In this document: piece by piece, positions 58 through 4,108 of the stretch
How the letters are laid out: the number at the start of each line of letters is the position of its first letter
Numbering within the stretch: position 1 is the stretch's first letter
Source of the DNA: Clostridia bacterium
GTDB taxonomy: Bacteria; Bacillota_A; Clostridia; TANB77; CAG-508
DNA: 10,257 nt
Direction of reading: 5' to 3'
Assembly: GCA_017621295.1 (NCBI GenBank)
Contig: JAGATI010000047.1
Span: 1-10,257 of the forward strand
Notes under the pieces: generated by a model
Database searches by the model: none
What the model was told of the DNA's origin: nothing
The model's input: the letters and a program-made list of their open reading frames with translations, nothing else
Made by a program: the position numbers and the translations under genes

Positions 58-759
58 ATGAAATTTTTAATAAACAAAAGAATAGAAAATAAAATAAGAT
101 TATATAAATTCTTTCCAAAAGAAAAGGCAGATTTAGTAAATATAATAGCAAGTCTATTAAAGGATAAAATATATGACTTTAATTGTATTGACACATCTAA
201 TATAACAGATATGGCTTATTTGTTTCAATTTGCTTGTAGTAAAGCAGGAATGGAAAGAATTGGGTGTCAAATAAATGTTTCCACTTGGGATGTCAGTAAT
301 GTATATAATATGAGGGCATTATTTGCAAATTCAGTTATAGACATAAATCCTGGAATATCTGATTGGAATGTCAGTAAAGTAAGATATATGGAAAATATGT
401 TTAATTCAGTAGATAAATTTGATGCAAACTTAGAGAATTGGGATGTAAGCAATGTTGAGACAATGAACTTTATGTTTAGTAACTGTTATATTTTTAAAGG
501 AGAAGGATTAAAAAATTGGAATGTAAAAAATCTAACATATTCTTCATATATGTTCATTAGCTGTAAGACATTTAATGAAGACATAAGTAACTGGAATATA
601 GACAATATAAGATATATGCAGGGTATGTTCAATGGTTGTATCAGCTTCAATCAAAACTTAAGCAAATGGAAAATATATACAAGCATGACAAATATAGATA
701 AAGCATTCAGTAGTTGTTTAATACATAAATCAAATAAGCCACAAATAATATATTGTTAA
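58..759 (+). CDS. DUF285/BspA-type repeat protein, paralogue 1
   Basis: A 233-residue protein. Residues 1-75 form the module shared by all five paralogues: a start of the FLINKRI type, an FFP motif, a basic/aliphatic helix, then CIDTSNITDM, which resembles a degenerate first repeat. Six repeats follow, with their Trp at residues 77, 103, 128, 154, 179 and 204. The last repeats are eroded and the C-terminus is divergent. DUF285 (BspA-like) repeats are related to leucine-rich repeats and usually mediate protein or surface contacts. No signal peptide, lipobox or membrane segment is visible, so secretion by the usual BspA route is unlikely. The start follows an AT-rich leader without a Shine-Dalgarno sequence. 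The next gene begins 3 bases after the stop, so the two are probably co-transcribed. The fold family is clear; the role is unknown. Confidence 0.85.
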   Translation: MKFLINKRIENKIRLYKFFPKEKADLVNIIASLLKDKIYDFNCIDTSNITDMAYLFQFACSKAGMERIGCQINVSTWDVSNVYNMRALFANSVIDINPGISDWNVSKVRYMENMFNSVDKFDANLENWDVSNVETMNFMFSNCYIFKGEGLKNWNVKNLTYSSYMFISCKTFNEDISNWNIDNIRYMQGMFNGCISFNQNLSKWKIYTSMTNIDKAFSSCLIHKSNKPQIIYC

Positions 760-762
760 CAT

Positions 763-1551
763 ATGAGACATATAAATGAATTTCTTGTAAATAAGAAGAT
801 AAATAAGAGAATAGATCAAACTCATCATTATATATATTTTCCTGATAACATAGGAAATCTTCGCAAGGCAATAGAAGAATTAGTATGCAAAAATGAATAT
901 GACTTTAATTGTATTGACACATCTAAAATAACAGATATGTCATATCTATTTGAAGACATAAATATATATAAGCCATTGCAAAGTAAGATAGATGTTTCAG
1001 AATGGGATGTCAGCAATGTTGTAGATATGCATCATATGTTTTATGATTGTAAGAATTTTGATTGTGATCTCAGTAATTGGAATGTAAGCAAATGCACTAA
1101 TATGAGAGGAATGTTTGAAGGTTGTTCAAAATTCAAAGGCACAGGATTGTCAAATTGGGATGTAAGCAACGTTGAAAATATGTCTCATATGTTTTGTGAC
1201 TGTCATGAATTTGAAGGAGATGTAAGCAATTGGAATACAGGTAAAGTAATAACAATGTCAAGATTGTTCTATGATTGTTATAAGTTCAATTCAGATCTAA
1301 GTAAGTGGAATGTCAGTAAAGTTAAGAAAATGAATTCTACATTTAGTGGTTGTAGAGAATTCAATTCAAACATAAGCAATTGGAATGTCAGCAATGTTGA
1401 AAAAATGAACAATTTATTTAAAGACTGCATAAATTTCAATCAAAATTTAGACAACTGGAATGTTGTAAAGCCAAGGCAGACATATAATATGGAATTCATA
1501 TTTGATAATTGTCCACTTGAAGTTAATCCACCAAAATGGTATATAGATTGA
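763..1551 (+). CDS. DUF285/BspA-type repeat protein, paralogue 2
   Basis: A 262-residue protein with the shared N-terminal module (FLVNKKI, then YFP, then CIDTSKITDMSYLF). Seven repeats follow, with Trp at residues 81, 106, 132, 157, 182, 207 and 232, so the 25-residue period is nearly perfect. Most repeats keep the central Cys (for example MFYDCKNFD), which would stack as a cysteine ladder in a solenoid. The C-terminus (PPKWYID) resembles that of paralogue 5 (VPMWYVD), which suggests a shared C-terminal cap. A 43-base stretch (897-939) matches paralogue 1 (171-213) at all but one position, pointing to recent duplication or gene conversion. The stop is TGA, so TGA is not recoded here. The stop overlaps the first copy of a 31-bp tandem repeat. 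No export signal is seen; function unknown. Confidence 0.86.
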   Translation: MRHINEFLVNKKINKRIDQTHHYIYFPDNIGNLRKAIEELVCKNEYDFNCIDTSKITDMSYLFEDINIYKPLQSKIDVSEWDVSNVVDMHHMFYDCKNFDCDLSNWNVSKCTNMRGMFEGCSKFKGTGLSNWDVSNVENMSHMFCDCHEFEGDVSNWNTGKVITMSRLFYDCYKFNSDLSKWNVSKVKKMNSTFSGCREFNSNISNWNVSNVEKMNNLFKDCINFNQNLDNWNVVKPRQTYNMEFIFDNCPLEVNPPKWYID

Positions 1552-1704
1552 AATTTTTAAATGTTGTTACTATAAAAATTGAAAATTTTAAATGTTGTTA
1601 CTATAAAAATTGAAAATTTTAAATGTTGTTACTATAAAAATTGAAAATTTTAAATGTTGTTACTATAAAAATTGAAAATTTTAAATGTTGTTACTATATT
1701 TGTA
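1550..1704 (+). repeat. Five tandem 31-bp direct repeats
   Basis: The gap between paralogues 2 and 3 is five head-to-tail 31-bp units starting at 1550, 1581, 1612, 1643 and 1674. Each runs gaaaattttaaatgttgtta followed by ctataaaaatt. Copy 1 has one substitution (an a to t in the A/T run) and overlaps the stop codon of the preceding gene. Copies 2-4 are identical. Copy 5 matches until 1698 and then changes to tttgta. There are no spacers, so this is not a CRISPR array. The 31-bp period is close to three helical turns, so any protein site or A-tract bend would repeat on one face of the helix. Possible roles are an iteron-like protein-binding array, a transcriptional control region, or simple slippage expansion. 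Confidence 0.95.
1671..1702 (+). promoter_or_regulatory. Candidate Bacteroidota-type promoter in the last repeat
   Basis: ATTG at 1671-1674 and TATATTTG at 1695-1702 are separated by 20 bases. This fits the known Bacteroidota primary sigma pattern (TTTG/TTG at -33, 19-21 bases, TAnnTTTG at -7). Transcription would start near 1709, about 25 bases before the ATG at 1734. The earlier repeats carry the same upstream box but have tataaaaa in place of TATATTTG, so only the last copy makes the full match. Chance matches are easier in DNA this AT-rich. Confidence 0.5.
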
Positions 1705-1733
1705 TTGAATAAGCAATTAAAGTAGATATAAAT

Positions 1734-2474: not shown

Positions 2475-2479
2475 TATAT

Positions 2480-3211
2480 ATGAAGCAACGTTTTCTCATA
2501 AATAAAAAGATATCAAATAAGATAGTACAACATTCTATTTGTGAGTATTTTCCCAATAATAAGAATGATCTCATAAATATAATAAAGAATCTTATAGATC
2601 AAAAGATATATAATCTGAATTGTATTGATGTCAGTAAGATACAAGATATGTCTTATTTGTTTGGTGTCAACATACTTTTGACAAAAGACATATTAAAAGT
2701 AATAGATATAAGTAATTGGTATGTAAATAATGTAATAGACATGAGCTATATGTTTGAAGATTGTGAAAGCTTCAATTGTGACATTAGTAATTGGGATGTA
2801 AGTAATGTGACAAACATGGATAGAATGTTTAGCGGTTGTAAGAAATTCAATCAAGATATAAGTGGTTGGGATGTAAGTAATGTGATAGACATGTCTCATA
2901 TGTTTGAAGGGTGTGAAAATTTCAATCAACCATTGAATGATTGGGATGTGTCCAATGTTGAAGATATGTCTGGTATGTTTAGTGGATGTAAGAAGTTCAA
3001 TCAACCTCTATATAAGTGGAATATGAAGTCTGTAAGATATTTAGAACATATGATGTTTGGTTGTGACAGTTTCAATCAACCATTGAATGATTGGAATTTG
3101 TCAAATGCAATATCCGTAAATAGTATGTTTAGCAGATGTTCTAAGTTAAATAAGAGCTACATATTGTTTAAGTTAAATGACAATTTGAAATATGAATATA
3201 TGTTGAACTAA
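2480..3211 (+). CDS. DUF285/BspA-type repeat protein, paralogue 4
   Basis: A 243-residue protein with the shared N-terminal module (RFLINKKI, YFP, NCIDVSKIQDMSYLF). Six regular repeats follow, with Trp at 80, 105, 130, 155, 180 and 205. Repeats 2-4 are the cleanest in the window (WDVSNVTNMDRMF, WDVSNVIDMSHMF, WDVSNVEDMSGMF), each followed by a Gly-Cys turn and FNQ. Their closeness at DNA level also creates a 103-codon antisense open frame, which is a by-product of the repeats. The gene sits 5 bases after paralogue 3 and 12 bases before paralogue 5, with no Shine-Dalgarno sequence. No secretion or membrane signals are seen. A protein-binding solenoid is the likely structure; the partner is unknown. 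Confidence 0.87.
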   Translation: MKQRFLINKKISNKIVQHSICEYFPNNKNDLINIIKNLIDQKIYNLNCIDVSKIQDMSYLFGVNILLTKDILKVIDISNWYVNNVIDMSYMFEDCESFNCDISNWDVSNVTNMDRMFSGCKKFNQDISGWDVSNVIDMSHMFEGCENFNQPLNDWDVSNVEDMSGMFSGCKKFNQPLYKWNMKSVRYLEHMMFGCDSFNQPLNDWNLSNAISVNSMFSRCSKLNKSYILFKLNDNLKYEYMLN

Positions 3212-3223
3212 CACATATATGAT

Positions 3224-4108
3224 ATGAAAGCAAACAGATTCTTAGTTAATAGTAAAATAGTCAATAGCATATCAAATTATAGATATTCTCCAGATACAAA
3301 GGAAGAGTTGCAAGCTATAATATTGATGCTTATAGATAGAAATGAATATGACTTAAATTGTATTGATGTATCTAAGATAACAGATATGAATTCTCTATTT
3401 AGAGATCTTGCATTTAAGATAAGTTATACAAAATTTGAAAATATAGACATAAGCAATTGGGATGTAAGCAATGTAGTAGACATGGGATATATGTTCTATA
3501 ATTTCAATACATTCAATTCTGACATAAGTGGTTGGGATGTAAGAAATGTTGAAATTATGTCAAATATGTTCTATGGATGTAAGAAGTTCAATCAAGATTT
3601 AAGTAAATGGAATGTTTGTAATGTAATAGCAACAGACAATATGTTCAATAGTTGCTATAGCTTTAATTGTAATTTGAATAGTTGGAATGTGAGTAAAGTG
3701 GAGGATATGCACAATATGTTCATAAGATGCTATGCTTTAAAAGATTCTGACTTTTCTAATTGGAATACATCTAATGTTAAAGCAATGGGATATATGTTTT
3801 CTAATTGTAGACTTTTTGAAGGAAAGGGATTAGAAAACTGGGATGTAAGCAATGTTGTATATATGAACTATATGTTCTTTGAATGTGAGAATTTCAATGC
3901 TGACATATCTAAATGGAATGTTGAGTATCTAAAAGAAATGGATTCAATGTTCAATGGTTGCAATAAGTTCAGCTATGACCTAAGCAATTGGAATCTACCA
4001 AGAGTAAAGAATATGAATTGGACATTTGTAAATTGTAATTCACTTAAGTCAGTACCTATGTGGTATGTTGATGCTCTACATAATACATTAAGAAAAGTTA
4101 AGATATAG
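3224..4108 (+). CDS. DUF285/BspA-type repeat protein, paralogue 5 (longest)
   Basis: A 294-residue protein, the longest of the five because it has eight repeats, with Trp at residues 79, 104, 129, 154, 180, 206, 231 and 256. Repeats 4 and 5 each have one extra residue before the following Trp (SDFSNW, GKGLENW), as also seen in paralogues 1 and 2. The N-terminal module is conserved (RFLVNSKI, YSP, LNCIDVSKITDM). The C-terminus (VPMWYVD plus a basic tail) resembles that of paralogue 2. The start at 3224 is chosen because the ATG at 3219 meets a stop two codons later. This is the only gene here ending in TAG; reading through it would add 15 residues before a TAA at 4151. No export signal is visible. 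Confidence 0.86.
   Translation: MKANRFLVNSKIVNSISNYRYSPDTKEELQAIILMLIDRNEYDLNCIDVSKITDMNSLFRDLAFKISYTKFENIDISNWDVSNVVDMGYMFYNFNTFNSDISGWDVRNVEIMSNMFYGCKKFNQDLSKWNVCNVIATDNMFNSCYSFNCNLNSWNVSKVEDMHNMFIRCYALKDSDFSNWNTSNVKAMGYMFSNCRLFEGKGLENWDVSNVVYMNYMFFECENFNADISKWNVEYLKEMDSMFNGCNKFSYDLSNWNLPRVKNMNWTFVNCNSLKSVPMWYVDALHNTLRKVKI

Follow-up and report, generated by a model that had tools for sequence, protein, structure and literature searches.

A five-gene DUF285 array in a large contractile-tailed phage, and an N-terminal leader in related phages that resembles the capsid-targeting leader of T4 internal head proteins

Proteins of the DUF285 family, also described as BspA-like or PARCEL proteins (PF03382), are known as tandem paralogues with a 25-residue repeat and an N-terminal cap, and their occurrence in phages is already established: Sphingomonas phage PAU carries one large DUF285 protein, and the Prevotella phages Lak-A1 and Lak-B7 give one or two matches. 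Aureococcus anophagefferens virus (AaV), an algal giant virus with another kind of virion, has many DUF285 genes, two products of which are contained in its particles (PMC7507832, in excerpt). The other system of relevance is the internal head proteins of phage T4, which join the core through an N-terminal sequence and lose their N-terminal propeptides to gp21 (PMC5694885, in excerpt); only this leader is homologous among Ip1-3, where it directs packaging, and the proteins are injected, each of the three blocking one type of GmrSD restriction enzyme (PMC12373910, in excerpt). Described here is a 10,257-nucleotide stretch of DNA, contig JAGATI010000047.1 of the Clostridia bacterium assembly GCA_017621295.1 (the window), in which five DUF285 genes (g1-g5, positions 58-4108) precede a tail sheath gene. 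The family is tentatively read, at not quite even confidence, as capsid-packaged and injected leucine-rich repeat (LRR)-type binders of host targets in giant gut phages with T4-like heads; it is because of an N-terminal leader that head packaging and injection form the best single explanation.

All five array open reading frames (ORFs) match PF03382 at 147.6-286.3 bits (Pfam curated cut-off, 25 bits), and the Pfam scan placed no other domain above cut-off in any of them. The original prediction of five proteins of one design with 6, 7, 6, 6 and 8 repeats is borne out, as counts by W-starts agree and leave ends of 4 and 15 residues in g2 and g5, respectively; repeat starts are spaced by 24-27 residues, mostly 25, and an N-terminal cap precedes the repeats in every protein. 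The ~25-residue tandem repeats of g1-g5 are predicted to form an LRR-like solenoid, as seen in the AlphaFold2 model of g5 (mean predicted local distance difference test score 92.6), in which residues 1-15, the leader, are of very low confidence and lie outside the confident fold. Searching the PDB by sequence with g1-g5 returned nothing at E 0.01. Cys is present in 26 of the 31 repeats, and no hydrophobic signal segment was seen by a hydropathy heuristic, as distinct from a signal-peptide program (highest 15-residue hydropathy within residues 1-60, -0.08 to 0.91); by the same heuristic, g1-g5 lack the secretion signal or surface anchor of BspA-type surface proteins. Of the BspA likeness proposed earlier, the repeat itself stands, but the label 'BspA surface protein' derives from bacterial proteins; the window proteins differ from the described family in being phage-borne with no signal segment seen, and from the proteins of PAU and Lak in being a tandem set of small ones. 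Identity of g2-g5 to g1 is 37-42%. Where residues are shared, their codons are identical about as often as expected from codon usage, and somewhat more often in the N-terminal module; because this agreement barely exceeds the prediction, g1-g5 are judged to be old paralogues and not the outcome of recent duplication.

The new part is the N-terminal leader. In phages sharing the window's sheath, DUF285 proteins start with MKxLxxYIxE-K..., the segment after the Glu being, for example, KLHLNKD. DUF285 starts in relatives include MKQINTYIIEKLHLNKD, MKKLNQFITEKFRLSKD, MKSLVNYLSEKLVINKN and MKNLNNYIFEKLNIKD (genome records G006, G011, G020 and G010, respectively), and similar starts occur on small non-DUF285 proteins with unrelated bodies, the arrangement by which T4-type internal proteins are recognized; DUF285/BspA-like/PARCEL proteins as otherwise described differ in this respect. 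In one 170-kb contig the leader pattern is found on 24 of 211 non-DUF285 ORFs; such pattern counts have the Glu as a condition, which makes them in part circular, and a motif-free pair test and a Glu-blind count were made to avoid this.

For the pair test, ORFs of 90 aa or more were paired in all combinations; DUF285-DUF285 pairs and pairs with a BLASTP match at E 0.1 between their bodies (from residue 31) were dropped, and in the rest the first 22 residues were set against residues 41-62 and the last 22; the ORFs were mechanical calls on 20-kb pieces, so that those crossing piece ends are missing or cut. Like pairs at the N-terminal/internal/C-terminal positions numbered 272/4/18 in G006 (of 13,023 pairs), 13/1/1 in G007, 12/3/1 in G008, 941/47/98 in G011, 1165/65/80 in G020, 155/25/47 in G001, 347/11/35 in G002, 318/22/50 in G010 and 110/17/32 in G014. 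The shared initial Met biases the test toward N-termini, and the counts for G021 (288/61/118), G009 (17/8/9) and T4 (15/5/10) reflect this bias plus leaders of their own. Between DUF285 and non-DUF285 proteins, N-terminal/internal like pairs were 43/0 in G006, 623/6 in G011 and 500/16 in G020. Glu, which was not searched for, follows an N-terminal [YF][ILV]x in 29/46 cases in G006, 7/12 in G007, 7/14 in G008, 82/141 in G011, 49/122 in G020, 32/57 in G010, 16/38 in G014, 22/50 in G001, 11/35 in G002, 29/100 in G021 and 7/20 in G009; inside proteins the share is 6-11%, about 8%. The leader is kept as protein sequence, since its codons are approximately those predicted from the residues alone. 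When the segment after the Glu was compared between DUF285 and other proteins, the match within a genome exceeded that between genomes in five of eight genomes.

Ten leader-bearing non-DUF285 proteins were scanned (nine from G006, one from G007), of which nine had no Pfam match and one was HAD-like. The HAD-like protein with its leader is encoded at L134 15557-16195 (G006), L146 10778-11419 (G011) and L265 4795-5436 (G021), one of these phages being without DUF285; the Pfam call was made on the L134 protein, and those of L146 and L265 are alike by eye. The leader is tandemly duplicated in L224 19273-19914, where EKLVIFPSQVD occurs three times, and in L254 13784-14467. This leader on DUF285 proteins or in giant gut phages is not named in the titles and abstract starts of the open-licence literature searched, and none of the terms looked for occur in PMC7824862, which covers 224 jumbo phages.

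In T4, ipII and ipIII start with MKTYQEFIAE-A, while TITE-A is found at residue 19 of ipI and FLTE-A at residue 65 of gp23; by analogy, the form of the relatives' leader is that of the T4 capsid-targeting leader, and its reading as a capsid-targeting sequence is an argument by likeness. A PF03420 prohead protease was found in 8 of the 13 records searched (7 over cut-off) and a gp23-like PF07068 match in 7 of 13; both are present in G002, G006, G007, G008, G009, G011 and G017 (the protease of G017 under cut-off), and in all five sheath-sharing records searched. Six protease ORFs (492-585 aa) have repeats of W[VI][TC]EEFAPEVQ with [IV]xE sites in the C-terminal half, degenerate in G002. The protease ORF of L203-L207 and L209 was also observed to extend into a scaffold-like region in which W[VI][TC]EEFAPEVQN recurs. 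Common to the window's relatives and T4 Ip1-Ip3 are the [FY][IL]xE leader on unrelated bodies and the S77 prohead protease with a gp23-like capsid protein; the relatives differ in having dozens of tagged proteins, many of which have bodies of LRR type, and in a segment behind the Glu that is longer than in T4, and the window differs in that Glu is missing from four of its five leaders.

From this likeness we infer packaging, cleavage, injection and target binding. In the relatives, the leader MKxLxxYIxE with its following segment would load proteins into the head, and the phage's S77 prohead protease could remove it after the Glu; the packaged LRR proteins would then be injected together with the DNA, each solenoid binding a different host target, most plausibly one of defence or take-over. 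In the window, FL[VI]N[KS][KR]I would be the shortened form of this tag, whether an altered version or a remnant. Among the roles suggested earlier for an expanding set of interaction modules, interference with host proteins is the favoured one, and the idea of expansion is supported by the DUF285 ORFs of G011 and G020, which number 46 and 25, respectively. A broader proposal, possible but doubtful, is that T4-headed gut phages of up to ~400 kb hold an enlarged injected arsenal, in which a leader with a post-Glu part leaning toward genome specificity would load dozens of unrelated small proteins plus diversifying arrays of LRR solenoids, which would act against host defences as the viral equivalent of LRR receptors for recognition, the window belonging to a branch with a changed cleavage residue. 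Should the leader prove to be a tag for capsid targeting, candidates for injection by uncultured giant gut phages could be recognized directly in the sequence, and the DUF285 proteins of phages, to which the name 'surface protein' is often given, would obtain a different place and job; in view of the GmrSD types blocked by the three internal proteins of T4, leader proteins would also supply many candidate anti-defence proteins.

The leaders of the window share FL[VI]N[KS][KR]I, shortened in comparison to the relatives, and align with the post-Glu part of leaders such as MKHLNQFITE-YIIKKKLDKPIDS, in an alignment of the window leaders and 25 homologues chosen among 120 matches listed of 5942 found. 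The g2 leader was aligned to those of P0001, P0029 and others. Bridging forms exist: P0029 (MKNLKDIIES-QNFLVNRKL) has both parts, and P0011 and P0056 have EFLINK[KR]I. A DNA pattern for the window leader led to six IMG/VR loci, none of them DUF285, and was rejected, as reading in the pattern frame ends within 2-45 codons in all six; in two of these (L197, L200) another frame encodes a different protein with an internal FL[VI]NKKI. P0011, the closest NCBI leader match, had no IMG/VR relative by its peptide patterns.

Several results weigh against head packaging. The T4-type [IL]xE leader is, as judged from the sequences, well supported for the family but lacking in the window as a set, being kept only in g2, with K, C, R and R in the Glu position of g1, g3, g4 and g5; when scored with the relatives' leader profile, g1-g5 do not reach significance, being equalled by fractions of 0.075, 0.090, 0.62, 0.098 and 0.15 of 2258 non-leader ORFs. 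Both G001 and G010 carry leaders with no PF03420 or PF07068 match, and in G008, G011 and G014 (three of the eight genomes) the same-genome match after the Glu is not better. In Lak-A1 (first 400 of 541.6 kb) the N-terminal excess is weak (159/57/76) and Glu is not enriched (4/50), and a 40.7-kb stretch of PAU has no N-terminal sharing (0/0/1, with 0 of 736 pairs alike at the N-terminus). Many DUF285 arrays elsewhere are leaderless (L076 0/16, L088 0/22, L093 0/10, L095 0/5). With the leader profile in G006 and G011, the capsid N-terminus and the scaffold repeats were not among the top ranks, and in eight genomes the capsid protein had mixed ranks against non-leader ORFs, the best being 1 of 247 and the lowest 59 of 400; given these low and mixed ranks, it is not claimed that the leader is the same element as the capsid propeptide.

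Ranking next after head packaging, and unlikely on present evidence, is that the proteins are made in the infected cell and act there unpackaged, using their LRRs to bind proteins of the host or of rival phages, the window leader no longer being a head tag. The degenerate leaders of the window, the leaderless arrays elsewhere, the LRR-like fold with Cys in most repeats and the lack of a visible signal segment in g1-g5 all agree with it; however, the relatives' leader needs a function, having been found there on DUF285 and unrelated proteins in common. A role as external virion parts, in tail or head decoration or in adsorption, was part of the original prediction and is improbable: the array adjoins the sheath gene, PAU gp103 (a DUF285 protein of 1857 aa) and gp92, the homologue of the tube, are ~11 kb apart, and AaV provides a precedent for DUF285 proteins in particles, but proximity to tail genes is not kept in relatives, g1-g5 have no signal segment seen and no second Pfam domain, Cys is found in most repeats, and the relatives' tag suggests a location within the head. 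Of similarly low probability is that the leader is a tag for a non-capsid purpose such as intracellular sorting or translation, the arrays being mostly a by-product of a spreading PARCEL-type repeat, which fits the wide spread of DUF285 coding repeats between genomes (PMC2996958, in excerpt) and the leaders of G001 and G010, where no T4-type protease was found, but not the strong enrichment of Glu at the T4-like site or the keeping of leaders as protein and not as DNA.

The window array sits in a phage structural region, occupying the stretch before the sheath (Table 1). Among eight sheath loci read, a gp23-like capsid gene stands shortly before the sheath in five (L122, L123, L126, L225, L226), with zero to four small genes between them; in L224 it is 7.5 kb from the sheath, and L222 and L223 start too near the sheath to show its position. 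DUF285 ORFs are present in five of seven mapped sheath-sharing contigs (2 in G006, 3 each in G007 and G008, and the larger sets of G011 and G020) and absent from G009 and G021. The nearest is 2 kb from the tube in G020, 9-15 kb from the capsid-sheath-tube block in G007, G006 and G008, and 31 kb from it in G011; this 2-31 kb spread gives a fixed tail link no support, and the link drawn earlier holds in the window but is weak beyond it. Two further records, G012 and G013 (IMGVR 3300021256_002629 and 3300047323_000673), have 119 and 110 DUF285 matches but match neither PF03420 nor PF07068, and the leader is almost absent from the portions read.

Table 1. Positions of the array genes and other features in the window
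Feature	Position	Strand	Description
g1, DUF285 protein	58..759	+	233 aa; leader MKFLINKRI; PF03382 E 1.7e-43
g2, DUF285 protein	763..1551	+	262 aa; leader MRHINEFLVNKKI; PF03382 E 6.3e-83
31-bp tandem repeat, AT-rich, five copies	1540..1698		end of g2 into g2-g3 gap; TRF 5.1 copies, 97% matches
TTG-N20-TATATTTG promoter-like site	1672..1702	+	completed by last 31-bp repeat copy, upstream of g3-g5; pattern match
g3, DUF285 protein	1734..2474	+	246 aa; leader MKYCFLVNKRI; PF03382 E 1e-54
g4, DUF285 protein	2480..3211	+	243 aa; leader MKQRFLINKKI; PF03382 E 9.9e-68
g5, DUF285 protein	3224..4108	+	294 aa; leader MKANRFLVNSKI; PF03382 E 1.8e-86
tail sheath	4233..8591	+	1452 aa; phrog_34521 E 3.6e-102
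tail tube	8712..9362	+	216 aa; phrog_32623 E 1.3e-18, phrog_45 (tail tube) E 8.1e-7
start of DUF7487/homing-endonuclease-like gene	9440-10257	+	after tube gene

All genes of the window are on the + strand. The head-to-tail order of the array before a genuine sheath and tube was confirmed, with the amendment that g2 and g3 are separated by 182 bases, mostly the five-copy 31-bp repeat; the other gaps are of 3 (g1-g2), 5 (g3-g4) and 12 (g4-g5) bases. It had also been suggested that the array continues to the left, but no frame of the first 57 bases resembles the repeat by eye. The promoter-like site at 1672..1702 resembles Bacteroidota promoters; by pattern matching upstream of genes in relatives, neither the TTG-N20 motif nor a Bacteroidota-type promoter was enriched.

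That the contig is phage DNA, as first proposed, holds: it comes from a large phage with a contractile tail. Megablast of the window against phage records gave no DNA-level match. Close sheath relatives are found on seven IMG/VR contigs and on contigs in three metagenome-assembled genomes (MAGs), including some that are 376, 400 and 410 kb long, with identities of 51-55% across the alignment and 52-57% in the best segment; nine further IMG/VR sheath loci are at 28-34%. The window sheath, of 1452 aa, is longer than those of the ten nearest relatives read, which have 999-1293 aa, and from invariant alignment columns the additional length seems to be in mid-protein. The tube protein matched 27 phage records, 15 of them Prevotella (Lak) phages, at 26.6-29.4% identity among the 20 matches listed, and gave no match in IMG/VR. 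PAU and Lak are likewise large phages, with tubes distantly related to that of the window (28-29% identity), and DUF285 is present in 114 phage records.

With regard to the host, the MAGs holding sheath relatives are named Erysipelotrichales, Erysipelotrichaceae and Clostridia; in the order to which G020 belongs, 3 of 288 genomes carry the sheath, two of the three being G018 and G020 itself. Shine-Dalgarno-like sites precede 1-6% of ORFs in seven phage records versus 34% in T4, and none of the eight window genes; this near-absence in the phage group presumably fits Bacteroidota better. The DUF7487 endonuclease-like gene at the right end of the window is also found behind the tube gene in two other phages (L222 8241-9296 and L223 4375-5406).

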